This document shows, in pieces, positions 5,492-52,018 of a stretch of DNA of 64,000 nt. Under the pieces are notes generated by a model. It was not told where the DNA came from, searched no databases, and was given only the letters and a program-made list of their open reading frames with translations. Every line of letters starts with the position of its first letter. Within the stretch, counting starts at the first letter, position 1. Source of the stretch: Pyropia yezoensis (taxonomy: Eukaryota; Rhodophyta; Bangiophyceae; Bangiales; Bangiaceae); contig CM020619.1 in NCBI GenBank assembly GCA_009829735.1, forward strand, positions 16,063,816-16,127,815, in the 5' to 3' direction. Both the position numbers and the translations under genes were made by a program.

Positions 5492-7939
5492 ATGTCCTAC
5501 CCCGAGGTGCTTGGAGAGGAGGAAGACCTCCTGATCGGGGAGGAGATGGAGGACGACGCGCCTGTCGGTCCCGACGCCGCGCGTTACGGGGTGAGCTCGT
5601 CTGACGACGACGGGCCTGCGGTGTCCGTCCGTCTGTCGGCCGGAGGACTGTCGTCCGTGTGCAGCGGCACGACGGTGCCGTCGGCCGGCGGTCAACCCGG
5701 CGGTCAACCGCGCGTGGCGGCTTCTACCCCCTCTCTGCCGGCTGCCCGGATGGAGCCTGGTGCCGGTGCCGGCTCACCGCAGCTACCTCAAGATGGTCCG
5801 CCCTGCGGCGGAGGTGGCGACCCGCAGCCGACTCCGGCTGGTCAAGGTGGTCCGGGTGTCCGGGCGGTGACTCCTCGAGGCGGTCCCGACGTTGACGCGG
5901 GTGGTGGTGGCGGTGCGACACCCGGTGCGGCGGGTCAAGACGGTGCGGGTGTCCGCACGGCCGGGGCTCCGGCTCCGGAGGCTGTCCAAGTGCCTTCCCC
6001 TTCCGAGGCGGGGGCTACGCCGACGGGTGGTGCCGGCGCCGGTACCATACCTGCGGTGCCGCGGGTGTCGAGCGGTCAAGACGCTCCTTCTCCCATGGCG
6101 GTTGACACCGGGAGTTACTCCGGGCGGGCGCCCGCCCTTCTTCTTCCTCCTCGGCCTCGTCCATCTCCGACGTCGGCCCCTCTGCCGGTGGTGCGTCCCC
6201 CGGCGCCCCCGATTCTTCCTGGTCCTGCCCGGGTTGCCCCGTTGGGTGGCGGCGTCGCCGTGGCGGCGGGTCAACCCGCCATGTCGGTGTCCGACTTGGT
6301 GGCTCGGGTTCGAGGCCTCACGGTGCAAGAGTCGATGGAGTCCGATGGGCGTATGCGGGTGGACTTCCACCTGGTGCATCCCCGTGGAGAGTCCTCCCGC
6401 CGCGTTAAGGTGGACCCGAGCTGGGAGCGGGAGTTGGTGCGGCTGGTCAACCAGCCGAACGCGGTCCGGGTGGAACATCATTGGATCCTGAGTCAGCCGG
6501 ACGACCGGCATGCGCAGCTCTGGCGCACCCGGGTGGGACGGGGTGAGGTCTACCTCGACCCCAACTTCGGGGTCTGCGACCTCATTGCCCCCGCGTTGCC
6601 GCGGGAGATTGACTACCCGGCTGGTGCTCGGGGGATTGCGGCGGCGGCGGAGCCGGTTGCGTTTGGGGAGACGGTGGGCAGTACCGGTCGGTATCCCGAC
6701 TTTGACTACTACCCGGGGGTATCCCCGTATCTTTCGTTGACGGCTCCCTACCCGCCCATGGCGGGGTTGAAGTCGGCGTCGAGTTGGCGACGTAACCATG
6801 GTCTCATGGCGGATGCGTTCCGCACGGATATAACGTGTGCGTTGCAGACCGGCAACGGTCGTGCTCCGGTATACACTCCCGTGCGCCCGCCGCTATGGCA
6901 GGAGGGGTGGGAACCCGCCCCTGCTTTCCGGTTTGACACCGGCTCCTGTCTTCGCTACTTCGGGAGTGTGTTGGCCTCGCGACCGGTCCACCCGTTGCAG
7001 GGTACCTTCACCCTTGAGGTTACCCTCGGGCAGGCTTCATCCTTCTTGCTGTCCGTCCGCCGGCAGGGTCGTCTGTTTCATCTTCCGACGGGTGTCCGTC
7101 GGCACATCGCGCAGTTGGGCGTGGATCTGATAGCCGCCAAGACCGGGTTGGCCCGGGAGTTCGAAGCCCTGCTGGCTGTTCACGATGCCGTGAACTGGGC
7201 TGGGGTGTTGGCCCTTCCCCCGTACCGGGACCCGCAGGCTGGGGCTTCCCCCTTGCCTCGTCACTCGTTGCGTGTCCGGCGTACTCAGCCGGGTGAGCCC
7301 AGTTGCCATGGGTGGGCATCCACCGAGGCTGTTGCTGACTTGGGTATTCCCATGGTTATCCATGACCCTCTTCAGGTCCTTGCTCCGTGGTTCGGTAACC
7401 CGATGCCGGCGGCGGTTGGCCGTCGTCCCCGAGAGTGGGGCTCTGTGGGTGGGGAGCGTGAGGTGTCCCGTCGTCGGGCGGAGTACCGCCGTGGTTACGG
7501 TGGAGCCCCTTCGGTAGGGTCCTACCGGGCCTCGTATCAGGTGCCACCGGCTCCGGTGGTAGCCGTGTCGGCTCCTGTGGCTCCTCTGGCTGCGCCAGTG
7601 TCACCTCCCGCCCCTGTCCTACATGACGGGGGTCCCCGTCTCTGGTATGAGGGCGTTGACGCCCTTGTTACCCGCGCAATGCGTGGGGGACTCTCTGTTA
7701 GCTGGGGGGATATCTCCCCAGGTGCTGCGCTGGTTGGGTCAGCGCGTTGCTTCGGTGGCGTGCTGGACCGCCTCCAGAAAGCTCTGGAGGACGTGGAGGC
7801 TGGCCGCAGCACCCTCGTCCAGCTATGCACCGAGGTAACTCGGGTGGTCGACCGTCGTGACGTTGCCGACCGGTGGAGCACGGAGGTCTACGCGCTTACG
7901 CGTGAGTGGCCTCCCTCGGGCAGTGGGTCTACCCACTGA
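5492..7939 (+). CDS. E1 antisense accessory ORF, 815 residues, unknown function
   Basis: This ORF runs opposite to E1 gag-pol, between the pol 3' end and the presumed 3' LTR. The ATG at 5492 is chosen because an acidic start (MSYPEVLGEEEDLL) follows it; the frame is open further upstream but looks non-coding there. The first 270 or so residues are Pro/Ala/Gly-rich and probably disordered. A globular part follows, containing FGSV and a SVRRQGRLFHLP core, then a second Pro/Val linker and a helical C-terminal domain with VDRRDVADRWS. The core motif recurs in the antisense ORFs of E2 and E3, and the C-terminal domain aligns with E2 (Ala-x2-Trp-Ser near the end, LVGSARCFGGVLDRL against LVLGTYASVLNDVVDRV). 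No membrane helix, zinc finger or enzyme motif is seen. It is intact, so probably under selection or recently active. Function is unknown. Confidence 0.75.
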   Translation: MSYPEVLGEEEDLLIGEEMEDDAPVGPDAARYGVSSSDDDGPAVSVRLSAGGLSSVCSGTTVPSAGGQPGGQPRVAASTPSLPAARMEPGAGAGSPQLPQDGPPCGGGGDPQPTPAGQGGPGVRAVTPRGGPDVDAGGGGGATPGAAGQDGAGVRTAGAPAPEAVQVPSPSEAGATPTGGAGAGTIPAVPRVSSGQDAPSPMAVDTGSYSGRAPALLLPPRPRPSPTSAPLPVVRPPAPPILPGPARVAPLGGGVAVAAGQPAMSVSDLVARVRGLTVQESMESDGRMRVDFHLVHPRGESSRRVKVDPSWERELVRLVNQPNAVRVEHHWILSQPDDRHAQLWRTRVGRGEVYLDPNFGVCDLIAPALPREIDYPAGARGIAAAAEPVAFGETVGSTGRYPDFDYYPGVSPYLSLTAPYPPMAGLKSASSWRRNHGLMADAFRTDITCALQTGNGRAPVYTPVRPPLWQEGWEPAPAFRFDTGSCLRYFGSVLASRPVHPLQGTFTLEVTLGQASSFLLSVRRQGRLFHLPTGVRRHIAQLGVDLIAAKTGLAREFEALLAVHDAVNWAGVLALPPYRDPQAGASPLPRHSLRVRRTQPGEPSCHGWASTEAVADLGIPMVIHDPLQVLAPWFGNPMPAAVGRRPREWGSVGGEREVSRRRAEYRRGYGGAPSVGSYRASYQVPPAPVVAVSAPVAPLAAPVSPPAPVLHDGGPRLWYEGVDALVTRAMRGGLSVSWGDISPGAALVGSARCFGGVLDRLQKALEDVEAGRSTLVQLCTEVTRVVDRRDVADRWSTEVYALTREWPPSGSGSTH

Positions 7940-8418: not shown

Positions 8419-11400
8419 TTACAGTAGGCGTCGTCGCCTCATGTACGGCATGAGGAGTTGGCGGGGTATATTTGCCGCCTGTTCCCAGGTGGGTGAGTCG
8501 TATCCGACCCACATAACCTTGACGTACCAGGGTCCTGGTAGGTCCGGGTCGGTGTGTCCGACCACGCTCTCTACTTGGTATGGAATTCCATCCGGTCCCA
8601 CCGGGTCATCTGACCGGTGGGTTGTAAGAGCTTCATGTAGCAACCCAGCCGGTACCGGCTGAGGCTGTTCCGGCATCGGAGCAGGTGTGACGTCATTCAT
8701 GCTGATGCGTTGAATCTCCGTATCGGAGTGTAAGATAACAGAGTGGTCATCTCTGTGGAGGATCTGGTACGGTCCCTTGACCGGTTGCATAAGCTTGTTC
8801 CCTCGGAACTTCTGGTGTCTGATATAGACCCAGTCACCTGTTACCAGGGTTGCGTTGCGCACCCGTAGTCGGGCGTCGAAGTTCTTCTTATACCGAAGTT
8901 GTGTTCTGTCAAGGGCACCCTTGAGCTTAGGAATCATCCACGATAGCTTGGCCAACCAAGCTAGGTGGATGCGTTCGGCGGGTCGGCCCTTCGGTGTATC
9001 ATACCGAGTGCACCTGCCGGGTGGCAGCGTCAAGTTACCGACGCCTAGTGGCATGACCCACTCCAGCGGAGCAATGTTTGTGCTCCGATGTGGCCTGGCA
9101 TTGTATGCCAGGGTGAGTACGGACAAAAGCCTGTACCAAGTGTTCGTGTGCTCGGCCACGTAGCACTGCAGCATCTTTACGATGGTGCGGTTGAACCGCT
9201 CCACCTGCCCGTTGGACTGCGGGTGGTAGTCGGATGCCCGACGTGGTTCGATACCGAACATGCCTAGGACCTTATTGCAGAATGCCGACGTAAGGTTTGC
9301 TCCGTTATCGGAGAGGAGTTGCTTCATGACTCCGTATGCACTGATCCAGTGGTCAACCACTGCGTTCATGATCGTGTATGCCGTATCATTCGGGATGGCT
9401 GCCGCTCTTGACAGCTTAGTGAAGCGGTCAGACATGACCAGGATGTACCTGTTCCCTTCTTCCGTTATCGGAAGTGGCCCGAGTATGTCGATAGCGACTT
9501 GCTCGTTGGGCCCATCAGGTGGGAATAGCTTTATGGAAGACGCCCGCCTATGTAGACTCATGCGGTTACGTGCACAGGGGTGGCATCCCCTTACGTGGTC
9601 GACCACGTCGACGGCCATTGCTGGCCAGTAGAAGAACCTTCGCATTGCTGCGAACATACGTGAACCCCCCGGGTGTCCGGCTGTAGGGTTCTCATGTTCT
9701 CGTTTCATGACGGCTTGCCGTAAGGACACGGGAACCACGACTTGATGTCGTCCATCGGCGGGTGCCCGCCGGTATATGAGTCCGTCTTCGTTCTCGGAGA
9801 AGATGCCGGCCGTACCGGCCAGGAGGTTAGCACGATGACGTCTACAGTCATCGTCGTTGGCCTGTGCCTCGCGGAAGTCCGCGAGGGTCAATGGGCACGC
9901 AAGGTGTGCCATGGTATGGTCAGCCATACCCTGGGTAGCATTACCCACCATGCACACCGGTACTACCGGGATGTCCTCGTCCACCGGGCGGGTATCCCCG
10001 CTCGGGGTGTCGAGTCGAGACAACGCGTCTCCGAGGTGGTGGGTTGACCCAGCCTTATACACCGTGCGGTAGTCGTGCTCGGCCATCTTCAGCCTCCATC
10101 GGGCTAGCCTCCCATGGCTATCGGAATCCTTGTCACCTAGGTTGAGGAGCCATCGTAGGGGTTCGTGGTCGGACCTCACGATGAACCTGGAGCCCTCCAG
10201 GTATGGACGGAGCAGTTGCACTGCCCATATAACTCCGAGGCATTCACGCTCGGTGGCACTATAGTTCCGCTCAGCCGGGTTGAGTGTCCGGCTGAAGTAC
10301 CCTACCGGACGTAGGTCCGGGATAACGTTGTCGGTACCGATCAACGTCTCTCCCTGTAACAGGGTGCATCCCACTTGTGTATCACACGCATCGACATCGA
10401 TGACGAAGGTACCCCGTCTATGCGGAAACGCAAGGACGGGTGGGGCTAGTAGGGCTCGCTTCAGCGACTCGAATGCCTCCTCTTCGCTAGGCGAAGGGGG
10501 TTGGAGTACCTTGGGTAAGGTACTGCTCGTAAGAACCGTTAACGGTTTGGCTATCCGAGCGAAGTCCTTGACGAACCGTCGGTATACATTGCACATTCCC
10601 AGGAAGCTCTTGAGCTGCGTCTGGGTGTTAGGGAACCGGGCATCCCGGAGTGCCCGGGTACTGGCTTCGAGTACCCCTAGTTTACCAGGGGTTATCTGGT
10701 GGCCCAGATACTCGACCGTCTGTTGGAAGAAGGCGCACTTCTTCAGACGCAGGGTTACCCCGGCGTTCCTCAAGAGGGTGAGTACCTCGTCAACATGTTG
10801 TACATGGTCATCCATGTTACGCGAGAAGACGATGACGTCATCGAGGTACACTAGGCAGTTACGCCACTTCACGCCCGACAGTATGATGTCGATAGCCCGC
10901 TGGAAGGTAGCGGGGGCGTTGGACAATCCGAAGGGCATCCTTAGGAACTCGTACACTCCACTGTGACAGACGAATGCCGTCTTGGGGATATCCTCGTCCG
11001 CCACCGGGATCTGCCAGTATCCGGCATTGCAGTCGATGGTGGTAAACACCGTAGCCTCCCCCAGGGAGTCGATGCATTCATCCATCCTTGGTAAAGGGTA
11101 TGAGTCCTTCTTGGTAACCAAGTTGAGGCGTCGATAATCGATGCAAAACCGAGGGGTTTGATCCTTCTTCGGCACAATAACGACTGGGGCACCCCATTCC
11201 GACATCGAAGGTCGGATCACCTTAGCTTCACTCATCCTCTTCACTTCTCCATCGACGATCTCTCGTTGCATAGGTCCCGCTCGGTGCGGTTGTGAGCGGG
11301 CGGGTCGTGCGCCTGGTACCAGGTCTATACGATGTTGGGTTGCCCCAATGGTCCCCAAGGCCCCGCCTGTCCACATGACGTCACGCTTTCTTAGCATCCG

Positions 11401-12606
11401 TCGTACCCCTTCGGCTACCGAAGGGGGAAGGTGGTCGAGGTCAGCCTCGGCCAGTGCCTTCAAGGCCTCTTGGTCCTTTGGCGGCAGGTCCGCCGGAGCC
11501 GCCGATGGGTTAGGCTTCCCGTCATCGGGTTGCTGTCGCTCGGTGGTCTCGGCGACCGCCAGTGCTTCAAGTGGTTCCACTTGACCTTCCTTATCAGGGG
11601 TAAGAATATCTCCTTCGTAGAGTTCGGCAATCCCGAGGATAGTTCCCTTCGGGAGGGTGACTGCCTTACGGCGATAGTTCGCCATCACTAAGAGGGACGA
11701 CCCTCCTGCTGGGAGGTCTATGAGACCGTTGGCCATGGTCAACCCATGGCGCTTGTACGTCCGTAGGTTGGACTGTACTCTGCAGATGCCTGCGAGGTCG
11801 CAGTTAACCGGGAGGACTGTCTCCGACAACGGCTCAAAGCGAGTTCGCTTGGCCAACCGAAGTGTCTTCGGCTCGACGCTTGCGTACACCTCAGCCACGT
11901 TAACGTGGCTTCCTTGTAGCGTCAGGTCCCTGACGATAGCCGTGTGTCCTCGCTTCGTCCCGTCGGCTTCTTGAAGCTCGACGGTCCTCCGGCCTGGCCG
12001 GATTGCATCAACGTGAACGTTGATGAAGGTGCATCCCAGTATGCAGGGCACCGATAGCGTTTCACATACCAGAAAGTCAACTTCCGTGGTGAGATCCCCG
12101 ATGGTAACCCGCAGCGACATCGCTGCGGTCGTACGAATGAGTCGACCATTCGCGTCCTTGATGGTGGGTCCCCGAGTCACTCTGACTCGTGGAAGCCACT
12201 TGTCCGGGAGGGTATCCTTCCGGATAAGGTTGGGTCCAGCCCCTGTATCCAGTACAGGGTAGTACGATCGTGTCGACTGGGGGTCAACCCCCAGTGTGGC
12301 TGATACCTTGAAGTTCTCCAAGGTAAACAACACATGTCCTACACCGATATCCGGTGTAGCTCGGGCATCCTGAACAGGGCCCTTGTCTGGTTCAACGTGA
12401 CGGGGCTTCCCGTCATTTCCTCCCAACCTTGGAGGTTGGTCATCAATCCCCTGACGCCGTGTCGTCGGGGCCGGAAGGTGTACCCGGGGGTTGATGCGGC
12501 GTCGGCTCAACCGCGCTCTCCGTGGGGCTTTCCCCGCGGTACTCCGGGGTGGCTTGCTTGGGTAACCCCAGCGCCCCCCGGTCATCCTTCCTCTTACTCG
12601 TTTCCC
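8419..12606 (-). CDS. pol: E1 Pol polyprotein (PR-RT-RH-IN-chromodomain)
   Basis: Domains in order on the minus strand: aspartic protease VLDTGAGPNLI (about 12260-12220); reverse transcriptase with FCIDYRRLN and YLDDVIVFS (about 10845); RNase H with DVDACDTQVG (about 10390) and TERECLGVIWA; integrase with an HHCC finger ending CHPCARNR (about 9570), first Asp in VAIDILGPLP, DNGANL (about 9310) and GQVERFNR (about 9200); and a chromodomain-like C-terminus WYVKVMWVGYDSPTWE (about 8480). All catalytic residues I can locate are present and there is no stop. The open frame runs up to 12816, but translation probably enters it by a -1 shift at the heptamer at 12600-12606. The chromodomain places it with the chromoviruses, which use it to direct integration into particular chromatin. 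Confidence 0.9.
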   Translation of the reverse strand, partial: GKRVRGRMTGGRWGYPSKPPRSTAGKAPRRARLSRRRINPRVHLPAPTTRRQGIDDQPPRLGGNDGKPRHVEPDKGPVQDARATPDIGVGHVLFTLENFKVSATLGVDPQSTRSYYPVLDTGAGPNLIRKDTLPDKWLPRVRVTRGPTIKDANGRLIRTTAAMSLRVTIGDLTTEVDFLVCETLSVPCILGCTFINVHVDAIRPGRRTVELQEADGTKRGHTAIVRDLTLQGSHVNVAEVYASVEPKTLRLAKRTRFEPLSETVLPVNCDLAGICRVQSNLRTYKRHGLTMANGLIDLPAGGSSLLVMANYRRKAVTLPKGTILGIAELYEGDILTPDKEGQVEPLEALAVAETTERQQPDDGKPNPSAAPADLPPKDQEALKALAEADLDHLPPSVAEGVRRMLRKRDVMWTGGALGTIGATQHRIDLVPGARPARSQPHRAGPMQREIVDGEVKRMSEAKVIRPSMSEWGAPVVIVPKKDQTPRFCIDYRRLNLVTKKDSYPLPRMDECIDSLGEATVFTTIDCNAGYWQIPVADEDIPKTAFVCHSGVYEFLRMPFGLSNAPATFQRAIDIILSGVKWRNCLVYLDDVIVFSRNMDDHVQHVDEVLTLLRNAGVTLRLKKCAFFQQTVEYLGHQITPGKLGVLEASTRALRDARFPNTQTQLKSFLGMCNVYRRFVKDFARIAKPLTVLTSSTLPKVLQPPSPSEEEAFESLKRALLAPPVLAFPHRRGTFVIDVDACDTQVGCTLLQGETLIGTDNVIPDLRPVGYFSRTLNPAERNYSATERECLGVIWAVQLLRPYLEGSRFIVRSDHEPLRWLLNLGDKDSDSHGRLARWRLKMAEHDYRTVYKAGSTHHLGDALSRLDTPSGDTRPVDEDIPVVPVCMVGNATQGMADHTMAHLACPLTLADFREAQANDDDCRRHRANLLAGTAGIFSENEDGLIYRRAPADGRHQVVVPVSLRQAVMKREHENPTAGHPGGSRMFAAMRRFFYWPAMAVDVVDHVRGCHPCARNRMSLHRRASSIKLFPPDGPNEQVAIDILGPLPITEEGNRYILVMSDRFTKLSRAAAIPNDTAYTIMNAVVDHWISAYGVMKQLLSDNGANLTSAFCNKVLGMFGIEPRRASDYHPQSNGQVERFNRTIVKMLQCYVAEHTNTWYRLLSVLTLAYNARPHRSTNIAPLEWVMPLGVGNLTLPPGRCTRYDTPKGRPAERIHLAWLAKLSWMIPKLKGALDRTQLRYKKNFDARLRVRNATLVTGDWVYIRHQKFRGNKLMQPVKGPYQILHRDDHSVILHSDTEIQRISMNDVTPAPMPEQPQPVPAGLLHEALTTHRSDDPVGPDGIPYQVESVVGHTDPDLPGPWYVKVMWVGYDSPTWEQAANIPRQLLMPYMRRRRLL

Positions 12607-13903
12607 GCCCTTGGTAGGGTGCTGTCCGCCGGACATCCGGCTGAGGAGGTGCCCCCTCGACGGCCAGTACTCCACCTGGAGCTGGCTGCCTACCCGGTGC
12701 GGGTCCGGGTGCTCGGGCGGGATACCCCCCGGTGGATGCCTTGCGTTGCGCCGCTGCCCGCCGAGACTCCTCGGGGATGAGTGGGCAGGAAGACACCCAG
12801 TGCTGGGGATCCCCACACAACATACACCCGGACGTGCCGGTCCCCCCTTGAGTTCGCATCGGGGTAGCCCCGTAGCTACGGTTGCCTCCCTCGGGCGCCC
12901 GAGTGCCTGCTCCCTGGTAGGCCTTGGGTCCTTGGGTCAACCGGAACATGGACTTCCCCAACCGGTTGGGTCGGCCCGCAATCTGCGGGGGTGCCTCCGT
13001 GCGCACCGCCCATGTTGGCAAGGTTGGTGAGGGTTACCCTTCACCGGGGAGTACCCGTAGTCCGCACATACGGGACGCGCCGTCCCGTTCCTTCGTTGAC
13101 CTGGAACTGGGTTCCAGCCGGGGCGATGTACGCTACCGTACCATGTTCATCAATCACCGGCGTCGCCGGTAGCAACAGGTGGCCCTGTTGGTCGACTACA
13201 GGTCATCCTCACCAATAGGGGTATGTTCGGTCGCCACCAGTACTGGTGCGGCCTTACGTCCACCTTCTCTTGCCTCGGTACCGGGGTAAGACTGGGCTTG
13301 CCTCCCTCACCCTTGGGCTTCGGGGCCAAGGCACACTCCGGGTGTAGAACCCGGTAGGCGTCCCCTAGGGACTTGCACATATGCATCAGTCGACTGAAGT
13401 TCGTCCGTGCCGTGTTGGCGCCCCGTGCGGATATCCGCACGTAGTTGGGTACTCCTGCGAACAGGATGGCCCGTAGCTCCCCTTCTCCGAGGAGCTTCCC
13501 CAGCTCGTAGTCGAGCTCTTGGATCCGGCGTCCAAACATCTCCTCATCCTCCCAGGACTGGGCGGTGGCAGTGCGAAGGGCCCGATAGTGGTCCTCGCAC
13601 TTGTCCTCACTGAGGTAGCTGCTCAGCAGCTCCTTCAATATCCCACGGTAATCCATGGGGGTGGCCGCGACCCTCATTCCCGGCATCGGGGATGCCTGGC
13701 GAAGAATGCCTCGCACCCGTTCATCAACAAAGAACGGGAGGATCTCCAGGGCCAGCCCCTCGTTAACGAGCGCCTTGTCTGCGGCTGCCTTGAAGCTAGT
13801 CAAGAAGCCGATGACTGCCAACGGGCGTCCGTTCGGCCCCCCGAACATAGGGACTCCCTTCATAAGGGTCTGCATAGAGCGGATCGCCCGATGCGACGTA
13901 TTA
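12443..13903 (-). pseudogene. gag: E1 Gag, partial and frameshifted
   Basis: The segment 13903-13150 encodes a retrotransposon Gag capsid-like region (FGGPNGRPLAVIGFL, then QSWEDEEMFGRRIQELDYEL, typical of the retrotrans_gag fold). The segment 13021-12443 holds the CCHC zinc knuckle CMLCGDPQHWVSSC. The two lie in different frames, and a third frame supplies the joining segment (ATPVIDEHGTVAYIAPAG at about 13160-13100), which in the related E4 is continuous with the knuckle frame. At least two single-base indels are therefore present. The N-terminus is lost in the assembly gap. Either E1 Gag is inactive or these are consensus errors in a GC-rich repeat. Confidence 0.75.
12600..12606 (-). promoter_or_regulatory. 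Candidate -1 ribosomal frameshift heptamer of E1 (GGGAAAC)
   Basis: On the minus strand GGGAAAC is followed by GAGTAA. In the phase G_GGA_AAC the next codons are GAG TAA, and pol lies exactly -1 to that phase. The gag zinc-knuckle frame is the third frame here, so a one-base deletion between the knuckle and this site must be assumed; the aligned E4 stretch is one base longer. Confidence 0.55.
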
Positions 13904-14800: not shown

Positions 14801-16423
14801 GTGGACTGGAGTCTACAGGCGGCCAAGTACCCCCTGCTCCCGTTCCTCCGGCTGTTCCTCCTGTGGGAGCCACCCCGGGGTCAACGGCGTTTTGAGTCCG
14901 CTCGCAGCAGACGTCTCCCTCCTGTCGGTTCTACTCTTCAACCTCCAGGGATAGCCCCTGGTGTGTTTACTCCTGGACCCACACATGGCAGCTGGGTGTA
15001 TACACCTCTTCCTGTGGGCACTAGCAGTGCCAGAGGCACCGCTATGACTGGTTCTACGGGTCTTCCTGAGACTTCGACTCCTGGGACCGGCCAAGCTTTT
15101 CCTCCCCTTGCGTCCTATGGGGCGGGGAGCTCCAAGACCGGTGACCGGAGCAGCCGTAGGCGTCGGCGTCGTCGCCGCCGCTCTAGCACCAGCGAGACCA
15201 GTTCCTCCAGCTCTGAGGAGGGATATGACTGGGATGCATCTCCCGGTCCTACCCGGCGCAGGCTAGTCGAGTTCGACTTCCCTGCCCACCAAGTGGGAGA
15301 TGCCACCCTGAACAAGGTCACGTATTGGGGTAACTACCGGCTGGAGAACCAAGACCAAGGTTACACCCGGAAGATGGCCAAGAAGATGGCATCCCTGAAC
15401 CGGCGAATGCAGCCGAGCTTTGGGGGACATCCTAAGTTTTCCGGGAAGAGACCGGCGCTTATCTTTGCCTTCCTGCGCCGGTTTGTCAAGGCATGCAATG
15501 ACAACGATGTGTCCGAGGGCAAGGCTCTCTATCTCCTGGTTAACTTCATGACCGGAGAAGCGGAACAGCGGTTTGCACAGGTTCTACCAGACTCTGCCGG
15601 GCACATTGTTGGACGTACCGTCGCGAGTTATCCGGAGGCGGTCAACTGGCTCCTGTCCAACTACGCAGACGCGGACTCCCTGCGTAAGGCAGTCGGTAGG
15701 CTGAACCGGGCAACCATGGAGAGACAAGAGACTCCAGAGGCGTTCGCCCGTCGTGTCCGGGAGATGAGCGATGCTTGTGGCAACGTTTACCCTGAGGACA
15801 GGCTCAAGATGATCTTCTCGGAGGGGCTTCCTGAATATCTTCAAGTGGATGCGGAGAACTACAACCAGGAACATCAAGAACATACCTTCCAGCAGTTGAT
15901 GGCCTATACCCAGGGCAAGCACCGGCAAGCCAAGGCCCTCCAGGCTCCTATGGTATCAACCCCCAAGCCGTTGTCGCGAGTTCGTCCCGGACCCGACAAG
16001 TATAAGGGAGGTGATAACCCTGTACCGGTACTCGCAGTTGGCGAGGCCTCACCCATGGAGTCAAGGGACAAGTGGGGCGGCTTCGTTTCTAAGGAGCAAC
16101 CTTCCCTGGTCGCCCCCAAGCAGATCAGGAACCAGCGGTTCCGGTCTTGCTGGCTGTGCCAGAAGGAGGATCATATGTCCTACCAGTGCCCGACCATTCC
16201 CGAGGATCTCCAGGAGAAACTCAAGCGTCAAGGACTGGTGTTTGCAAAGGCGGTCAACTGGGCTGACCGGCGGGCACCCTCCAAGATGGACAAGGCACAG
16301 GTACATGCCATCCGAGTGGCAACCTTACAGAGCATCACGGAGGCTCTGGCAAGGGAAGCTCCTACGGACTTTGACCTGGAGACCGAAACCTCTAAGGACT
16401 CCTCGGAGCCGGGAAACGAGTAG
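14801..16423 (+). CDS. gag: E2 Gag
   Basis: The clear coding part has an Arg/Ser-rich linker (nine consecutive Arg near 15155), a capsid-like retrotrans_gag region (FSGKRPALIFAFLRRFVKAC to VYPEDRLKMIFSEGLPEYL, about 15430-15850) and a single CCHC knuckle CWLCQKEDHMSYQC (about 16150-16190), ending GNE then TAG at 16421. The start is unsure. The first in-frame ATG that looks protein-like is 15043, while an ATG at 14663 begins MATLPGTTVPEG in this frame and then continues protein-like one frame off (about 14700-14890) before returning. Two compensating indels in the N-terminal region are likely. The product should form the virus-like particle and bind element RNA. Confidence is high for the fold and low for the start. 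Confidence 0.85.
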   Translation: MDWSLQAAKYPLLPFLRLFLLWEPPRGQRRFESARSRRLPPVGSTLQPPGIAPGVFTPGPTHGSWVYTPLPVGTSSARGTAMTGSTGLPETSTPGTGQAFPPLASYGAGSSKTGDRSSRRRRRRRRRSSTSETSSSSSEEGYDWDASPGPTRRRLVEFDFPAHQVGDATLNKVTYWGNYRLENQDQGYTRKMAKKMASLNRRMQPSFGGHPKFSGKRPALIFAFLRRFVKACNDNDVSEGKALYLLVNFMTGEAEQRFAQVLPDSAGHIVGRTVASYPEAVNWLLSNYADADSLRKAVGRLNRATMERQETPEAFARRVREMSDACGNVYPEDRLKMIFSEGLPEYLQVDAENYNQEHQEHTFQQLMAYTQGKHRQAKALQAPMVSTPKPLSRVRPGPDKYKGGDNPVPVLAVGEASPMESRDKWGGFVSKEQPSLVAPKQIRNQRFRSCWLCQKEDHMSYQCPTIPEDLQEKLKRQGLVFAKAVNWADRRAPSKMDKAQVHAIRVATLQSITEALAREAPTDFDLETETSKDSSEPGNE

Positions 16424-19400
16424 GGCAGGCGCTCTCCCCAAGTGTCTTCCCGAATCTCCAACGGCAGGGTACTTCTACCTGTTCTCCCCTTGCGTGCCGG
16501 GAGAAAGGACGGCAGTTACCTGCTCAACCGGTAGCCGCCTGGACACCCTGTTTGTTCAAGGGGACCTTGCTCGTCCTGCGTAAGGAAAACCTCAAGATTA
16601 ATGCTCGTATGCGTGTGGGGGATAGCCTCCCCCAAGCTGTTACGCCGGTGGTCGACACGGGAGCCGGACCAAGCGTCATCACTGAGAACCTGTTACCTCC
16701 GGGCTGGCGTCGACATGCCTGGAGAGCGCCTACCAAGACCCGGATTGTAGACGCATCAGGTCAAACCCTACGACCGCTTGGCCGTCTTCCCGTCGCCATC
16801 TATGTCAACAATGAACCAATGCTTTTTCCCTTTCTAGTAGTCAAGACCTTATCAGTCCCCCTCATCCTAGGCTGGGACTTCCAGAAGCAGCATGTCAAGA
16901 GCATCCTACCCGGAGAAGGAAAGGTGCAGTTCAACCATGGGTTTGTGTCGCCAGTACTGGAGCACCTGGACACCAAGGTTCGTGTGGCCAAGAACCAGAA
17001 GGAACGCATCCCACCCTCTACCTTGACCCTCATCAAACCGGTGCTCCTACCTCCTCGCTCGGAGACCAAGGTTCAAGTCACGACCCGGACTGCAGGTCAA
17101 TGCCTGATCTACGGACGCAAGGAATTTCTGGCGAAACACCGATTATACCTAGCCCACGGACATCACAAGAAGGTGGAGAGGCACACCCCGTTCTCGGTGC
17201 TGATCGTCAACGTGAGCCGGAAGCCAATAACCCTCGCCAAGGGCACTCGAGTTGGTACAGCAGAGCCTTACCGGGGGTCCGCCCGCGCCATGAGCAAGGA
17301 AGACCTCTTCAACCTCCAACAAGAGCTGGCATCCAACTTGACGGCCTTAGACGTATCTCCGGAACAAGAGCAGGCTGGCCGTACTACTCCGAAGCCCGAA
17401 CAAGCACCACCCGGGATGCCGAAGGTCAACCAAGAAAACGTCCCTCTCGACTTGAAGGAGGCACTGGAGAAGCTTCTCCAGGAACATCGGCACCTGTGGT
17501 CCGGAGAGCTGGGCAAGATGGACGCCACCCTACACCGGATTCAACTCAAGCCAGATGCCAAACCAGTGCACATGCACCCATACCGGGCTGGACCTCATCG
17601 CCGGGATGAGATTGAGAAGCAGGTTAACAAGATGCTCAAGATGGATGTTATCGAGCCGTCTGATGGCGAGTGGGCTTTCCCGGTGGTAGTCGTCCCGAAA
17701 CCTGGCGGTCACTTCCGTTTCTGCGTTGACTACAGACGCCTGAACGAGATGACAGTCAAGGATGTATACCCGATACCCCGGATGGATGATTGCCTCGACT
17801 TTCTTGGTGATGCCACCCTCTTCTCGACGCTGGATTGTAATGCCGGTTACTGGCAGATCCCTCTGGCTGACGAGGACAAGGACAAGACTACCTTCACGTG
17901 CCACATGGGACTGTTCCGGTGCAAGCGTCTCCCTTTTGGTCTCACTAATGCTCCGGCAACCTTCCAGAGAGCCATCGACATCATCCTGTCGGGGCTAAGG
18001 TGGAGAACATGTTTGGTCTACCTGGACGACATCATTGTTTTCTCCAAGACCCCAGCGGAACACCTGGAGCACCTTCGAGAGGTCCTGGCCCTCCTGTCCA
18101 AGGCTGGAGTTACCCTCAAAGCCGAGAAGTGCCACCTGTTTGAGACTGAGGTGGAGTACCTGGGGCACGTGCTCAGTCCGGGGGAGCTCCGAGTCAATGA
18201 GAAGGACATCAAGGCCCTCCGGCATGCACGGCAACCTAAAACCCAGACGGAACTCAAGAGCTTCCTGGGTATGTGCAACGTCTACCGCCGGTTCGTACGG
18301 GACTACGCTCTGATTGCCCGGCCCTTGACCAAGCTTACTAGCAAGAAGCTTCCAGCACAACTCCAGGTGTTCGACGAGAAGCAGACAGCAGCCTTCGAAG
18401 AGCTCAAGAAGCGCCTGACCACCACTCCAGTACTGGCGTTACCCAAGCGGGAGGGCCAGTTTGTTCTGGAGACTGATGCCTGTGGCGTCCAGGTGGGGTG
18501 CTCACTACTCCAGCAGCAACCTGAGGGGCACTTCCTCCCGATAGGCTACTACAGTCGCGTCTTGACTCCCGCCGAGAAGAACTATTCCACGACCGAGCGC
18601 GAGTGCTTGGCGGTCGTCTGGGCTTGCTTCCTGTTACGTCCATATCTTGAAGGACAAGAGTTCCTCATCCGGACGGACCACGCCAGTCTAAGGTGGCTGC
18701 TATGCATGGACAGCAGTCAAGGAAGGGTCGCCCGGTGGCGCCTACGCCTTTCGGAGTTCAAGTACAAGGTGTGCACCAGAGCAGGGAGGGAGCACCACTG
18801 CGCCGACACCATGTCCCGGCTGGAGACTCCTGCAGCCGATACCGGTCCTATCCCGGAGGAAATACCTTGCTTCATCCTCCCGAATGTCGGACGTGGCTGG
18901 CACGCTCCCCTGTACGAGACACCTGACGCTCATCAACCGGTAACCATTCACCGGATGCTGGAGGCACAATTGACGGACCCTCAATGCTTGGAGCTTCGCC
19001 ACCAAATGGACCTGAACCGGAACAGTCGCTTCTCCGAGTCTACAGACGGACTCCTGGTACGGGTGTCACCCTTCGATGGGGCAACTCAAGTCTACGTACC
19101 CCGGAGCCTACGGACTGATATCCTACGCCTGGAGCACTCGTCTCCCCAGGCCGGGCATCCTGGTATCAATCGGATGTATGCTTCCATGAGACGACATTAT
19201 TACTGGGAAACCATGGCCAGTGACGTCCATAAGTGCCTGGAGGCTTGTATTTCTTGTGCAAGGAACCGGTTGTCCCAGAGGAAGAAGACTTCTAAGCTAC
19301 GCCTATTCCCTGCGGCGGAGCCCTTTGCAAGCTTAAGCATGGACATCCTGGGGCCCCTACCTGAGACCTCCAGTGGCAACATATACCTACTCATCATTTG

Positions 19401-20511
19401 TGACCGGTTCTCCAAGTTCACTCGAGCAATCCCGTTGAGAACCATCACGGCTCTGGATGTCACGTCGGCCTTCTGCGAGTACTGGATAGCTGCCTACGGC
19501 CCTCCAGACTCCGTCTTAACCGACAACGGTCCCCAGTTTGCATCCCTGTTCTTCCAAGGAGTCTGTGACCTGATGGGCATCAAGAACTTGTACACCACGA
19601 CGTACCACCCTCAAACGAACGGCCAGGTGGAACGATTCAACCGGACCCTAGTGGACATGCTACGGCACTACGTGGAGGAGCACCAAGAAGACTGGGACGA
19701 GCTCCTGGCTGTCCTCACTCTAGCCTACAACTCCCGAGTTCACCGGACAACGGGAGTCGCTCCACTCGACTTTGTCACCCCAAGGCGGCTGACCAACTTC
19801 TCCCTGGAAAGAATACCGGATGGTCTCCAGCCTGCACTGAAGTCAGGTCCCAAGGCAAAGGATGAGTTCCTGGAACAACTAAAGCTCCTGCTCCCAAGAG
19901 TCAAGGAGTCAATCTCAAAGACCCAGGAGCGATACAAGCGGGACTATGACAAGGGTGTCCGGGAAAAGAACAAGGAACTGGGTGGTGGCGACTGGGTTTT
20001 TGTGGACAACCATAGCAAGACCCGGGGGAAGCTGGACTCTAAGACGGATGGACCTTATGAGATCCTCAATACGGATGGCTGGACCTTCCTTCTAGACGTG
20101 GATGGTTCCCCGTACCGGGTGAGCAGCGACCATGTCACCCGAGCTCCACCGCCAAGCCAACGGGACTTGACCCGGCGTAAGCGGACTGCGATACCCTGGC
20201 TATCCCAAGAAGAAGGCCGGGAATTTGTCTACGTCAAGTTTGTCGACCATGCCTGGAGAGATGGACGCCTGTACCTGCGAGTACGCTGGTTCGGTTTTAA
20301 CCCAGCAGATGATACATGGGAACCCTCAAACCGGCTACCCATCGCGGACGTCTGTGCCTACACGCGACGGAACGGGATTGAGGGCACTCCCGTGGCCAGA
20401 GCCGGCAAGATTCTGGAGTCGGACACGGAGGAGGACCAAGAGGACGGGGCCAACAAAGACCCTCGGGACGAGACGAGCTCACCCGCAACGGATGCGGAAC
20501 AAGAGGATTGA
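16396..20511 (+). CDS. pol: E2 Pol polyprotein (PR-RT-RH-IN-chromodomain)
   Basis: The frame is open from 16396 with no internal stop, and is probably reached by -1 frameshifting from gag. Domains: protease VVDTGAGPSVI (about 16655); reverse transcriptase with FCVDYRRLNEM and YLDDIIVFS (18019); RNase H with ETDACGVQVGC (18472) and TERECLAVVWA; integrase zinc finger (H...H...CISCARNR, 19138-19270), SMDILGPLPE (19339), TDNGPQF (19520) and GQVERFNRT (19623); C-terminal chromodomain LYLRVRWFGFNPADDTWEPSNRL (about 20270-20340) and an acidic tail. Every catalytic residue I can place is intact, so this is the best candidate for an active element here. Confidence 0.95.
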   Translation, partial: GLLGAGKRVGQALSPSVFPNLQRQGTSTCSPLACREKGRQLPAQPVAAWTPCLFKGTLLVLRKENLKINARMRVGDSLPQAVTPVVDTGAGPSVITENLLPPGWRRHAWRAPTKTRIVDASGQTLRPLGRLPVAIYVNNEPMLFPFLVVKTLSVPLILGWDFQKQHVKSILPGEGKVQFNHGFVSPVLEHLDTKVRVAKNQKERIPPSTLTLIKPVLLPPRSETKVQVTTRTAGQCLIYGRKEFLAKHRLYLAHGHHKKVERHTPFSVLIVNVSRKPITLAKGTRVGTAEPYRGSARAMSKEDLFNLQQELASNLTALDVSPEQEQAGRTTPKPEQAPPGMPKVNQENVPLDLKEALEKLLQEHRHLWSGELGKMDATLHRIQLKPDAKPVHMHPYRAGPHRRDEIEKQVNKMLKMDVIEPSDGEWAFPVVVVPKPGGHFRFCVDYRRLNEMTVKDVYPIPRMDDCLDFLGDATLFSTLDCNAGYWQIPLADEDKDKTTFTCHMGLFRCKRLPFGLTNAPATFQRAIDIILSGLRWRTCLVYLDDIIVFSKTPAEHLEHLREVLALLSKAGVTLKAEKCHLFETEVEYLGHVLSPGELRVNEKDIKALRHARQPKTQTELKSFLGMCNVYRRFVRDYALIARPLTKLTSKKLPAQLQVFDEKQTAAFEELKKRLTTTPVLALPKREGQFVLETDACGVQVGCSLLQQQPEGHFLPIGYYSRVLTPAEKNYSTTERECLAVVWACFLLRPYLEGQEFLIRTDHASLRWLLCMDSSQGRVARWRLRLSEFKYKVCTRAGREHHCADTMSRLETPAADTGPIPEEIPCFILPNVGRGWHAPLYETPDAHQPVTIHRMLEAQLTDPQCLELRHQMDLNRNSRFSESTDGLLVRVSPFDGATQVYVPRSLRTDILRLEHSSPQAGHPGINRMYASMRRHYYWETMASDVHKCLEACISCARNRLSQRKKTSKLRLFPAAEPFASLSMDILGPLPETSSGNIYLLIICDRFSKFTRAIPLRTITALDVTSAFCEYWIAAYGPPDSVLTDNGPQFASLFFQGVCDLMGIKNLYTTTYHPQTNGQVERFNRTLVDMLRHYVEEHQEDWDELLAVLTLAYNSRVHRTTGVAPLDFVTPRRLTNFSLERIPDGLQPALKSGPKAKDEFLEQLKLLLPRVKESISKTQERYKRDYDKGVREKNKELGGGDWVFVDNHSKTRGKLDSKTDGPYEILNTDGWTFLLDVDGSPYRVSSDHVTRAPPPSQRDLTRRKRTAIPWLSQEEGREFVYVKFVDHAWRDGRLYLRVRWFGFNPADDTWEPSNRLPIADVCAYTRRNGIEGTPVARAGKILESDTEEDQEDGANKDPRDETSSPATDAEQED
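16411..16417 (+). promoter_or_regulatory. -1 ribosomal frameshift heptamer of E2 (GGGAAAC)
   Basis: GGGAAAC sits in the gag zero frame as G_GGA_AAC, one codon before the gag TAG stop. Pol is in the -1 frame, which is open from 16396, so gag and pol overlap by only 28 bases and the heptamer lies inside that overlap. GGGAAAC is a canonical X_XXY_YYZ slippery sequence. A downstream pseudoknot was not modelled. Confidence 0.85.
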
Positions 20512-22774: not shown

Positions 22775-23119
22775 ACCGTCCAGACTCCGGGGAATGAGAG
22801 GGCCAAGGTGAAGGAGCGGAGGGGGGGGGCAGAATCGGGGCAGGTGATCGTGACCGGGGTGAAGACGCTCGACCTCGGCACCGGTGTGGACGTGCTCGAG
22901 GCTGTGCACGGTGGCACCTGGTTCGGCCCGAGGACGTGCCGGACTAGGGAGGGAGCTATGTAGCATCCCTGGCCCCGACTTGGCGCCGACCCGGGACTGC
23001 AACCAGAGGGCACCAGGTGCCAGAACACGCCCGCCGTGTGGCGATGGTTGGCGGCCGTGGCCCGTGCCCGGCACTGGGATGCGGTGGACTACGCTATCCA
23101 CACGCGAGAGAGGGATTTC

Positions 23120-28776: not shown

Positions 28777-28809
<33 letters not shown>

Positions 28810-44076: not shown

Positions 44077-44545
44077 TGTGGCAAAACTGGCCCCACGCAG
44101 GGGAGCAGAGGGCGCCACACTGGCACGGGGAACAACTGGTCTAGCCCGTTCCTCCCTTTGCATTTGATCCCGAGTTTTCCTAAGTCAGGGATAGTTCGCC
44201 TAGTAGTAATTCCAACTTAGACTTGAGGGTTTTCTGCATTTTATCGCCTTAAATTTTCGTGTGGCCCGGTGGGCAGGTGCTGGGGTGGGAGATTCTGAGT
44301 GGCAAGATTCTCAAAGGACCCTGGGGGGGTAGGGGGGGGGACAGCGGGGCTTGGCCTTGCTTCCCCGTCCCGACCAAGAGACTGTTGGCCCACACACCAT
44401 CTTCTTGTTTGTTAGTGGGGGGATTGCCCCACAACAGGGACAGCGTGTGAGCGACTTGCGCTTTTTTCGGTTCACCCCACACGGGAGGCAGCCCTTGTGC
44501 ACAACCCCAACTTGGGTGCTGGGCGTGCGAGTGGTTTTTTCCACA
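44077..44545 (+). repeat. E3 5' LTR
   Basis: Begins TGTGGCAAAACTGG and ends TTCCACA. It aligns along its length with 52239-52707 and with the reverse complement of 31091-31558, with scattered substitutions. Confidence 0.95.
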
Positions 44546-46602: not shown

Positions 46603-49600
46603 ACGCTGGAGCTGGTCGTCCGAAGCTCACAGCGGCATCCTCGGCCAAGTGGGTCCAGAGTACGAATCAGCCCTGTCGGAAATTGCGCCGACCCAAAGGG
46701 GTCCGCCCACCTCGGGTAGGACTGCCTAAGAACGTTAACCCACGTCGGGTCATTGCGGTGCTGACCGGAGAGAACTCCAGGTGGCTGGCCGGGTGCAACT
46801 AGCCCCAGGCCGTTCGTGTTGCGCCCGTATCGTACTGGATACTGGCTCATGCGCTTCCTTGATTCGCCAGTCGCTGATTCCTAAGGAAGTGGAACTCCAA
46901 CGTTGGAGGTCCAGGGCTAACTATATGATCGACATAAATTGTGGGATACTGCCCATTGTTGGTGCTGTGACCCTACCAACTTGGCTGAGTTCCCATTAGG
47001 TCAACGTGACGCGTGGTGTGGTTGAGAACATGTCGGTGCCCCTGCTTCTGAGCACTCCGCATGTGGTGACTCAGGTGCCTTTGATTTGTGGCCCTGAGTA
47101 CTGGGTGAAGTTGAAGCATTGGGAAACTGTCCCCATCGTTGGTAAGGGGAAGTCTGTGGCTCCTGTGACAGTATCACAGTCGAAGCCTGTTTTTTCTGTT
47201 AGAGAAGGGCTTACTGCTACCTTGCGTCTGGCCTGTAAAGCCACGTTGCCTCCCAACTCGGTGGCACACGTCGACGTGGAAACTGATTATACGGGGAACG
47301 GGTTGGTGCACCCTAACCTCCAGCTTGCTCGTCAGCACCAAGTGCATGTTGCCCTTGGCACAATGGACTCCAAAGCCGGAGTCCCGTGGAAGGTCCAGGT
47401 GATGAATATGAGCTCTCTACCCAAGGATTTCAAGTCGGGAGCCAAGGTTGGCTATATCGACGAGTACCAGGGTTCGGTGACAGCGGTCACCCTCAACTCG
47501 GGAGTGACCGGCGGCAAGAAGCCCGCGGAGGAGAAGGAAAAAGCCAAGTCGGCGGCCTCTTCTCGACCCCATGTGGATATGGAGAGTGTTCCGCCGAAGT
47601 TGCGGGTTGAAATTGAACGCCTCTTGGACCAGTATGACGAGTTGTGGGATGGCCAATTGGGACTCATGTAGGCCACAGAGCACCGGATCGAGTTCAAGCC
47701 CGGTGTGGCCCCTATAAGTCAACAACCGTATAAAGGAGGGCCCCGTTCCAGGGCCCTCGTCAAGGAGCAAGCTGCTCGCATGGGGGGCCTAGACGTGATT
47801 GACGTCAGCAACGCCGAGTGGGCGAGCCCAGTCGTGATCGTCCCCAGACCGGATGGGACGCCACGGTTCTGCATTGACCACCGTAAGCTCAACGAGAGCA
47901 CGGTAAACGATAGATATCCTCTTCCTACGATGGATGACTGTCTGGACTCACTGTGGGAGGCAAACGTGTTCTCCACCCTAGACTGTAACACGGGGCACTG
48001 GCAAATTCCCATTGTCCCGGAGGACAGGCATAAAACTACCTTTACCTGCTACTGTGGGACCTACCAGTCCAAGCGGTTGCCGCTTGGGCTGTGCAACGCG
48101 CCGGCAAGTTTCCGGCGCGCGATGGACATGATTCTGGCCGGAGTACGGTGGCAGATCTGTCTTGTGTACCTCGACGACATCATCGTCTTCTCCCGAACTC
48201 TGAGAGAACACATTGACCATCTTGGTCAGGTGTTCACGATACTTGTTGACGCCGGTGTGTCGCTAAAGGCAAGCAAGTGCCGCCTCTTCACTCAGGACGT
48301 GGAGTACTTGGGACATGTTGTCCATCCGGGGCGTCTCAGTGTCAACAAGAAGAATCTGAAGGCTATTCGTAAGGCCCAGTACCCCCGGACACAAACCAAG
48401 ATGAGGGGCTTCCTCGGGATGTGTAGCGTGTACCGACGTTTCACAAAGGGCTTCGCCAAGGTGGCGAAGCCGGTGAACGAGCTAGTCAGCTCGACGCTTC
48501 CGAGCAATCTGCATCCCCCAAGTCGGGTGGAGCAGGAATCCTTTGAGACCCTTCGGGACCAGTTGCTGGACCCTCCCTTCTTGGCTATTCCGAGGTTGGG
48601 AGGCCACAATGTTCTCGACGTGGATGCTAGTTACGACCAACTTGGTTGTGTGCTGCTACAGCAACAGCTGGACATTGAGTACTTGCCAGTGGGATACTTC
48701 AGCAAGGGGCTGAACTCGGCCGAGCGAAACCATGGAGTCACCGAGTTGGAGGGACTCGCAGTGGTGTGGGCGGTGACATCACTTCGTCACTACCTCGACG
48801 GTAAAACGTTCCTCAGCCGTTGTGACCACCGCGCGTTGCAGTTTATCTTCGAGACGGATTGCATCAATACCCGCCTCAACAGGTGGCGGGTGCGGCTGGC
48901 GCCTTTCAACTTTGACTTTGAGTACCGCCCCGGCTGGCAACATGCCTTGGCCAACGGTCTGTCTCGGGTACCTACCGAGGGGCTCGACACTAACTCAATC
49001 GATGAGGACATCCCTATCGTGGGGGCGGTCACGCGCTCGGGTCAAGCGTTGGACTCCGAGACGCCAGGGAACAAGAACTACTTGCACCTGTCGGTGGATG
49101 TAGTCGTGAAGGCCCAGGCCGATGATCCTTCTGCAAGTCGGAGAGGGAGGCGCTTGACGCAGCGGCGAAGACACGGTTCTTCGTGGGAGACGATGGCCTC
49201 CTCTTGAGGAGGGGGGCAATCCAGGGGACTGAACAACTTGTTTTCCCCGCATCCCTCAAGGATAGTATCCTTGTGCGGGAGCATATTGCTCCCGCAGGTG
49301 GACACCTGGGGTCTAGTAAACTTTACCAGGCCCTGACAACCCGGGACTACTGGCCCTCGATGGTGGTGGACATCTACAGCTGGGTGGCTGCATGCACACG
49401 TTCTGCGCAGAACCGCCTGATGGAACGGCGGCCCACTACGGCGATGATGCTGTTACCGGCCAAGGAGCCATTTGCCGCTGGCAGAGATCACGGCCATGTC
49501 GGTCGTGTCAGCATTCCTAGATCACTGAGTTACCGCGTATGGCATCCCAGATATGACGCTATCGGACAACGGACCGCAATTTGCGTCCGTTCTATTTCAG

Positions 49601-50476
49601 AGAGTGCTGGACATGTTGCGGGTTCGGGCAAACTATACCACCCCCTACCACCCACAAACTAGTGGGCAGGTGGAGCGCTTCAACAAGACTATTGCTCGGC
49701 AGCTGCTCCACTATGCGAGTGAGCAGGTGAAAACGTGGGACCAATATGTCTCTATTTTGACTACTGCCTACAATTCGCAGGCTCACTCTTCTACAGGGGA
49801 CGTACCCCTCGCTTTTGTGACTCCGCGCCGTGTGCGGTCTAGTGCGGTACAGCGGCCGCTACCAAGTATGAATGCTGGTGGCGGGACACCTACTCCTACT
49901 GAGAGTAAGGTGGAGCTCGCTGCTAGGCTTGAGAAGCTCATCCCTGAAGTCAGAGCTGAGATGGACAAAGCGCAGAAGCGCTACAAGCGTACTTTCGACA
50001 AGAAGGTACGCAATGCCAAGCACGTCTCCAAGCAGGGTGACTGGGTGCTAGCACAATCGCATACCCCAACTGAGAGTAAGCTGGTGTTCCAAACGAAGGG
50101 ACCATACCAAGTCCTTCGTACGGATGGGCGACGGTACACCATCGAAAGTGACGATAGGATCCGCACCGTAAACGGACAGGACGTGGTCAAGGTTGCACAG
50201 CATCCTCCAGGCAACCCGGTTTGGGCGCGTGCGCTCAAGGCGTGGCATGTGCCGTACCTGCCTGCGGCCAACCAGGGTCCGCAGGAGTACGTGTTCGACA
50301 AGTTCGTCGACCACGGGTGGGATGAGGATACTAACCGCCTCATGTCGAGGGTGCGCTGGTTTGGCTACCGCGCCAAAGATGATACATGCGAGAACGTGGA
50401 GGACCTCCCCGCTGAGAAGGTCCGGGCTTACTGCGCCCGGAATGACATCGACGCGGATTGCCCTCCCTCAACGTGA
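46590..50476 (+). pseudogene. pol: E3 Pol with stops, frameshifts and an integrase deletion
   Basis: Protease IVLDTGSCASLI (about 46830), reverse transcriptase with FCIDHRKLNEST and YLDDIIVFS (48167), and RNase H with DVDASYDQLGC are recognisable. Stops: TAG 46997, TAG 47669, TGA 49526. Frame changes occur near 46785, 49140 and 49480. In integrase the zinc finger has Ser for the last Cys (CTRSAQNR), and the segment holding the first catalytic Asp is missing at about 49480, where AKEPFA joins directly to ITAMSVV. DNGPQF and GQVERFNK remain. The C-terminal chromodomain has Cys for the Trp of DTWE (DTCEN). It cannot function without help. Confidence 0.92.
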
Positions 50477-50587: not shown

Positions 50588-52018
50588 CTAGGCACGCATG
50601 CTAGGCCCTCCACCACCACGGTCCTCGCGCTCACGCGGAGGCGAGCGGCGAGACCCACGCCAGTAGCGGTCCCCACTAGTCGGTGGAACAGGCGCCTCAA
50701 AGTCGGATTCGTCATCAGTCTCACGGTCACGAGTAGGACGACGAGCGCGGCCACTTCCCTGCTTGGTCTTGCGCGCAAGTTGGCGGCGCAGACGACGGAC
50801 CGACTCGGTCTCGGATGGGGTGGATGACTCCGACTTGGAGTACGACAACTTTTCATCCGACACGGAAGGAAAACGCCGCGAGTGGCGGCTACGACGACGA
50901 GGAGGAGAGTAGGCACGGCTCGCCCGAGGCTTGCCGCGCACAAGTGGGGCCGACAAGGCCATGATGGAGCCGATGCGATGTGAAGCTTCAACATCTACTC
51001 GAGTAGAGTGAGTTGACCCGACGAGCGCCCCTCAGATACTTGCCGAGGGGTGAGCTGCTCCAAACCTTGGATCAGGCGGGGAGGGAGGCGCCAGAACTTC
51101 CCACGCCTCTGGACGCTGGCCACCCAGGTCGACATGACCTCGAGGAACCAGAGTGCCGCCAACATGGCAAACACTATGTGGTCCGGGCCAGCCGTCATCA
51201 TGACAGAGCCGAAGTGGTCAACCAACCGTGGTAGTAGCGCGGGGAACCCATAGAGGACCTCATTTCGAGGCCACCGCTTGGGCTTCTTGGGGAACAGTAA
51301 CTCCCTGATCGCCGGTGATTGCTGCGTAAACTCCAAGTCGAGCCGAGATAACCAAGTAGGGACCTCTTCGATTGTCCTTCTCCGTCCGCACGTCGAAGTA
51401 ATGGACGTGCCGATCAGAGGTATGGAGGCAAGGGGGGCAAGGTGCCACCACGTCCCACGTCAAGGTCGGCACGTCGCCGGGGCCCTCGGTGGTACCCCCG
51501 CGGGTCAACAAGTTGTTGACCCGCTGCACGTCTTCGACCTCCTTGTCATCAAGGAAGGCAAACTGGTCCGTCTTGAAGCCGGCAGTGAACCCGACCCAAC
51601 GGGGGAACTTCTCCCGTAGGCGGCCCCAGACCCGATCCATCGCTGTGCCAAGTCGGCCGCAGCGGATAATCGTCAAGCCTTCCTCGTATTGGGGCTAGGG
51701 TGGGTAGTACCACCTCCCCAGGGCCTCCTGCGAAGGAACAGGGCCTACCTCCGGAGGAGAGCCCGCCGCCAGTCCCGAGTCGGGTGGCGCAGGCATCGCA
51801 TCCCCCGGGGCAACCGCGGGACTCCCGCCGGAAGTCCCAACGGGTGCTACAACGCGAGGCGTGTCCTTCATACGCTCGTCCAGGGAGTCAGACTCCACCC
51901 CGGAGTATACCATGTCTCTCCTCAAGTTAGGGAGAGGCAACTTGGTCGTAACTGCCCGAGGCCCACCTCGAGTTGAGGAGGACTTGGATCGTGTGTATAC
52001 CGGGGGCCTCGCCAGCAT
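50588..52018 (-). pseudogene. E3 antisense accessory ORF, broken into four pieces
   Basis: Minus-strand pieces: 52018-51695, 51676-51260, 51336-50995 and 50962-50588, in changing frames. The third contains DHFGSV and SVQRRGKFWRLPPRLIQGLEQL, matching the E1 core (FGSV ... SVRRQGRLFHLP ... IAQL) and, more weakly, E2. The last piece is Arg/Ser-rich with a Glu/Asp patch and does not resemble the E1/E2 C-terminal domain. It ends 112 bp from the pol stop. A purine tract (gaggagaggggag) and the 3' LTR lie 220 bp upstream of its start. Confidence 0.7.

Follow-up and report, generated by a model that had tools for sequence, protein, structure and literature searches.

The 64,000-nucleotide stretch of the Pyropia yezoensis genome analyzed here (contig CM020619.1; hereafter the window) contains three Ty3/gypsy elements, E1, E2 and the broken E3, in which the region separating pol from the 3′ long terminal repeat (LTR) contains open reading frames (ORFs), or their remains, that run antisense to gag-pol; the same position 3′ of pol is occupied by an antisense ORF in A and B, two additional element types of this genome. 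Taken together, the sequences suggest that a chromovirus-type clade of Ty3/gypsy elements in this red alga probably carries a selected accessory gene, which is antisense to gag-pol, convergent with pol and located just inside the 3′ LTR. Purifying selection acts on the antisense frame in four of the five element types (E1, E2, A and B; E3 is broken), and the ORF is, as judged from sequence comparison, almost certainly a selected protein-coding gene.

The ORFs of E1 (815 aa) and E2 (769 aa) are open and lie opposite pol frames with reverse transcriptase (RT), RNase H and integrase; in E3, minus-strand fragments remain from 50591 to about 52078. An earlier sequence-only reading of the window had placed the three ORFs between pol and the 3′ LTR, at 112–480 bp from the pol stop; indeed, the coordinate differences are 480 bp in E1, 146 bp in E2 and 112 bp in E3, and the LTRs lie where this requires. 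The homology of E1 with loci L018 and L024 starts at 4544, and 4544–4905 is matched also by L009 and L011, as a separate block of 363 columns; the E2 LTR ends at 23531, and E3 has an LTR pair. For E2 the same reading had set the start at 22774, but the ORF opens at 22966 on the minus strand, with an inner methionine near 22777 as a possible true start; in the comparison with a second copy of this type, L036, similarity runs in one piece from residue 60–62 onward, while residues 37–59 match separately. The GC content of the three codon positions is 74.8/59.8/68.9 in the E1 ORF and 69.9/52.1/72.9 in the E2 ORF, with a low second position, as in pol.

The genome searched comprises 107.5 Mb (the three largest contigs seen were 43.6, 34.3 and 29.4 Mb), and 150 RT places, the window's own elements not among them, were scored out of 3927 candidates. 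Loci were examined at 20 of the 150 places, with their 3′ side, and at an E1-type neighbour (L029), six further places selected for an A/B-like RT match, and an E2-type locus (L036). Two further loci have an open E1-type ORF, L018 with 97.5% identity and L029 with 85% identity over the aligned codons; the E2-type ORF is open across 710 aligned codons of L036. A long antisense ORF directly follows pol in the A-type loci L016, L025, L019 and partly L015, and in the B-type loci L013, L014 and L017; all six later A/B-like places carry it, five of them fully open over the protein. Thus the expectation that the ORF is kept in other copies was borne out for the E1 and E2 types as well as for A and B.

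Stop-free runs extend for 909 codons in E1 and 845 in E2, whereas the longest runs in order-2 Markov simulations (2000 per region) were 539 and 704. Between E2 and L036, 73 of 106 changes fall at the third codon position, and over 710 codons the nonsynonymous (dN) and synonymous (dS) rates are 0.018 and 0.156, with a dN/dS of 0.12 (0.26, 0.02, 0.06, 0.16 and 0.06 in successive windows). For E1 and L029, dN/dS is 0.35 over 780 codons and varies along the protein, being 0.38–0.58 at residues 1–275, 0.08–0.16 at 276–595, 0.28 at 596–675, 0.58 at 676–755 and 0.28 at the C-terminus. When the same columns are read in the two shifted frames of the same strand, the ratio rises to 1.20 and 1.58; on the opposite strand the three frames yield 1.17, 0.46 and 1.69 and contain 5–25 stops per copy. 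This pattern across frames argues that the antisense frame is translated and constrained, most strongly in the core. The ORF gives 0.18 between the A-type loci L016 and L019 and 0.21 between the B-type loci L014 and L013, and pol gives 0.12–0.13, so that selection in the conserved parts appears about as strong as on pol; the very close pairs E1–L018, L016–L025 and L016–L015 have values of 0.45–0.52, based on few changes. The selected function surmised in the earlier reading is in line with these values, which are well under 1 in E1, E2, A and B.

Long overlapping ORFs are found on both strands of this region, long unrelated antisense ORFs occur near the pols of another lineage, and one opposite-strand frame has a dN/dS as low as 0.46, so that the ORFs could be thought of as chance products of a GC-rich genome or as the shadow of a sense-strand gene. 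However, their lengths exceed all simulations, the opposite-strand frames of E1 and L029 are interrupted by stops, no other frame has a dN/dS as low as the antisense one, and protein homology across types, described below, lies on the antisense strand and is lacking among the antisense ORFs of the other lineage; this explanation is therefore exceedingly improbable. A selected but noncoding antisense transcript, tuning gag-pol through double-stranded RNA and containing the ORF incidentally, would agree with the convergent layout, and the idea has been raised for plant elements (PMC7264820); since third-position bias and low dN/dS in a single frame point to translation, it is very improbable as the sole explanation, although both could co-exist.

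The antisense proteins of the five element types likely form one homologous family, with different certainty for its members. A and B are homologous (best BLASTP E-value 6e-19; HHalign 98.2%), and a profile of the A/B core finds the antisense fragment of E3 with an E-value of 1.3e-6 among 2232 six-frame pieces; among the pieces of the E3 region on both strands, only this core fragment gives a meaningful match. That E3, A and B belong to one family is thus well supported by these comparisons, while the membership of E1 and E2 is probable. The common core described in the earlier reading obtains weak support between E1 and E2 (BLASTP E-value 0.016; core profile P 0.0013, with none of 100 column shuffles as high), and their profile match stays borderline, since HHalign assigns it a probability of 18.6%. 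A core profile of E1, E2 and E3 matches the A/B profile over about 100 columns with P from 6.4e-5 to 3.8e-6; most of this score comes from E3, because E3 alone gives P 6.5e-5.

The distribution of the ORF was followed on an RT/RNase H tree of this genome's elements only (24 rows, 426 columns, midpoint root). A branch with 100/100 support splits 13 rows from 11, and all ten rows with the antisense ORF (E1, E2, E3, A and B) fall among the 13. No family member lies antisense on the 3′ side of pol itself in any of the other lineage's 11 loci; the family pieces present in two of them belong to neighbours, of E1 type in L024 and decayed in L028. As a control, 15 antisense ORFs of at least 250 aa start within 3.5 kb after pol in these 11 loci, and they match neither one another (BLASTP 1e-3) nor the family profiles (E 1); the sequence common to relatives of this lineage ends within about 1.2 kb after pol. 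The order RT, RNase H, integrase is present in E1, E2, A and B. The chromovirus label that the earlier reading had given to the elements holds for type A, the sole type of the clade with a chromodomain (37.1 bits) over the Pfam cut-off of 25.1 bits; it is less clear for B (19.0–19.1 bits), E2 (20.4), E3 (13.6) and the E1-type locus L029 (11.9), which are under the cut-off, and for E1, where no match is listed. The two rows tested in the other lineage have strong chromodomains of 54.8 and 51.0 bits.

A single ancient gain in the clade ancestor, with strong divergence of E1 and E2 since then, would be the simplest history, but it is not proved, and a number of results speak against it or against other parts of this interpretation. 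In the comparison with A/B, E1 and E2 without E3 are marginal (P 0.0053, none of 100 shuffles), E1 alone is equalled by 1 of 100 shuffles and E2 alone by 15; the core regions were chosen after the alignments had been seen, so that the P values look better than they should. The best pairwise alignment of E1 with A is in a register different from that of the core, and pairwise comparison of E1 or E2 with B and two A relatives gave nothing. The C-terminal domains, which the earlier reading had aligned between E1 and E2, do not match there (13 of 100 shuffles as high), nor in any other pair except, marginally, A and B (2 of 100). On the tree, L020 lies within the 13-row clade with a remnant of the ORF only (profile hidden Markov model E-values 1.3e-9 to 2.3e-16), and neither the A-type pol of L018, with its shorter frame, nor the E1-type pol of L026, which is followed on the 3′ side by a different element, has an antisense ORF of its own, which may be read as copies cut short; the label of the ORF changes four times on the tree, and at least three times by the starred branches, so that losses or truncated copies must be reckoned with. 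As to the protein, a basic cluster of the kind counted in the other types was not found in E1, and structure models are poor, with confidence (pLDDT) values of 53 and 28.5. The marginal scores of E1 and E2 to A/B and the unmatched C-termini, together with the repeated use of this site by plant and fungal elements, would suit several gains, in which A, B and E3 share one protein and E1 and E2 have unrelated proteins at a favoured site. Since the core of E1, E2 and E3 matches A/B over about 100 columns and all types lie in one RT clade, several gains are unlikely, if still a serious competitor of the single family.

In agreement with the earlier reading, which did not recognize the protein, the ORF products have no significant match in Pfam, NCBIfam or PDB. 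A mainly helical structure is probable, and several types contain a stretch that is basic or Arg/Ser-rich; basic clusters were found in A, B, E2 and E3. The place between pol and the 3′ LTR would also suit an Env-like or other virion surface protein, a very improbable identity given the antisense strand, the lack of a significant Pfam match and the hydropathy profile: no 19-residue window exceeds 1.6 (Kyte-Doolittle) in E1, E2, A, B or the relative P0007, two do so in the E3 piece and one in P0010. Relatives exist in public data, among them two relatives of the A-type protein that are named as hypothetical proteins of Pyropia vietnamensis; both are annotated as genes on long contigs, and one of them has a long additional part at the C-terminus. 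These might indicate a captured host gene carried as a passenger, an improbable origin considering that the ORF occupies the same place in divergent element types and is selected in mobile copies. P0008 (P. vietnamensis MMPV_008440) is annotated as a protein comprising the family and a long extra part at its C-terminus, which may reflect domestication of a copy or a merge made in gene prediction. One of 14 members scanned, perhaps P0008, gave a weak glycosyltransferase-61 match (E 0.026).

The sequence-only reading had likened the place of the ORFs to that of the Grande-type antisense ORFs of plants, and both strand and position agree. LTR retrotransposons have long been observed to contain antisense accessory ORFs for which no function is known, and the antisense gene of maize Grande is reported to have its own promoter and a nuclear product (PMC7264820); in Retand, a non-chromovirus lineage, the antisense ORFs encode TRP28 in 97% of clusters (PMC11963269), and Boty-like elements of Botrytis contain an additional antisense gene, brtn (PMC8365987). 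The algal ORFs resemble those of Grande and Retand, as described there, in the antisense strand, the place between pol and the 3′ LTR, the presence in most copies, the conserved sequence and the lack of a known function. Unlike Retand, they have no match to TRP28/Transposase_28 (PF04195) and the A-type pol has a chromodomain, the comparison being made through the domain library and not with plant protein sequences; PF04195 was unlisted at E ≤ 1 for E1, E2, A and B and at E ≤ 10 for 14 members, under HMMER filters that drop weak matches. With brtn they share, by place and strand only, the condition of an extra antisense gene carried by a non-plant Ty3/gypsy element, the host of Boty being a fungus. 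In the literature searched, no report was found of an antisense accessory ORF in red-algal elements. Because place and strand match the plant ORFs and brtn, yet TRP28 was not found, the algal proteins appear to be a new family of a known kind of gene; the backward accessory gene as such is already known from plants and fungi.

Features of the window described in this work; positions are those of the window.
Feature	Position	Strand	Remarks
E1 3′ LTR	4544..4905	.	boundaries common to L018, L024, L009, L011
E1 antisense accessory ORF	5492..7939	+	815 aa, open; N-terminal third low-complexity, conserved part about 276–675, then C-terminal part
E1 pol	8419..12636	-	protease-like, RT, RNase H, integrase (Pfam)
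E2 gag	15044..16423	+	CCHC knuckle match under cut-off
E2 pol	16609..20511	+	RT, RNase H, integrase (Pfam); chromodomain match under cut-off
E2 antisense accessory ORF	20657..22966	-	769 aa counted from first ATG, open; Met near 22777 a possible true start
E2 3′ LTR	23122..23531	.	end from 50-bp exact match to 5′ side; start guessed by eye (purine tract and TG)
E3 5′ LTR	44077..44544	.	paired with 52239–52706
E3 pol, in pieces	47672..50476	+	RT/RNase H frame, then integrase frame
E3 antisense fragment, Arg/Ser-rich charged tail	50591..51031	-	position only; no significant match
E3 antisense fragment with family core	50998..51459	-	A/B-core profile E 1.3e-6; larger profiles 1.9e-4, 7.1e-4
E3 antisense fragment, possible N-terminal part	51263..51694	-	position only; no match listed
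E3 3′ LTR	52239..52706	.	91.9% identity to 5′ LTR

Other features of these elements are worth reporting. A fourth element, E4 (window 57794–61644, minus strand), is a decayed relative of E1, with 71–77% identical DNA and pol in many pieces, in which tblastn gave no match to the antisense ORF. The 3′ LTR of E3 is about 82.6–82.8% identical to LTR-like stretches in two loci of the other lineage (L009:3580–4047, right after pol, and L021:6228–6695), a hint that the lineages may have exchanged LTRs. At another place in the genome, an E2-type element abuts an A-type element in opposite orientation, and its own antisense ORF is open (window 22669–23532; L033:1–867; L036). Tandem and GCC-rich low-complexity repeats are contained within long ORFs at 1800–4000 and 28400–28860 of the window. 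Dam-like domains occur in DIRS elements but are not known from chromoviruses; past its weak chromodomain, the C-terminus of the B-type pol (about residues 1147–1219; L014:3–3899, L013:2–3889) matches the DNA N6-adenine methyltransferase family PF05869 with 29.0 and 29.7 bits, over a cut-off of 28.1. Between the B copies L013 and L014, dS is 0.05 in pol and 0.48 in the antisense ORF, and the same trend is seen in an A pair (0.49 and 1.02) and in the E1 pair (0.12 and 0.25); this gap suggests that the 3′ module may be exchanged between elements or may change faster.

As to how the gene may work, its convergence with pol means that gag-pol RNA cannot be its template, and an antisense transcript starting near the 3′ LTR is needed; the start of such an mRNA would fall in the interval separating the ORF from the 3′ LTR, in the way reported for maize Grande (PMC7264820). 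The protein would then probably be a trans-acting nuclear factor whose targets are RNA, cDNA or silenced chromatin of the element itself. The constrained core, the rapidly evolving N-terminal stretch of E1 and the basic patches fit a regulatory protein linked to nucleic acid or chromatin better than a particle protein or an enzyme; a nuclear regulatory or anti-silencing role may thus be tentatively proposed, the step from protein to function being inferred. The HBZ protein of human T-cell leukemia virus type 1 is a bZIP protein and much smaller. As the nuclear product of a retroelement antisense gene (PMC11963269), it provides an analogy of working only.

These results suggest that the antisense place 3′ of pol has apparently been used repeatedly by Ty3 elements, in plants, in fungi and probably in red algae. 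It is conceivable, though somewhat doubtful, that the algal proteins are a new family that arose by a single gain in the ancestor of a red-algal chromovirus clade, as a clade-defining nuclear antisense regulator, for instance in counter-silencing, and apart from the antisense genes of plants and fungi; if this is true, Ty3 elements of different kingdoms would have convergently acquired a reversed accessory gene next to the 3′ LTR. Within this genome, the other lineage serves as a natural control, which makes the role of the protein testable.

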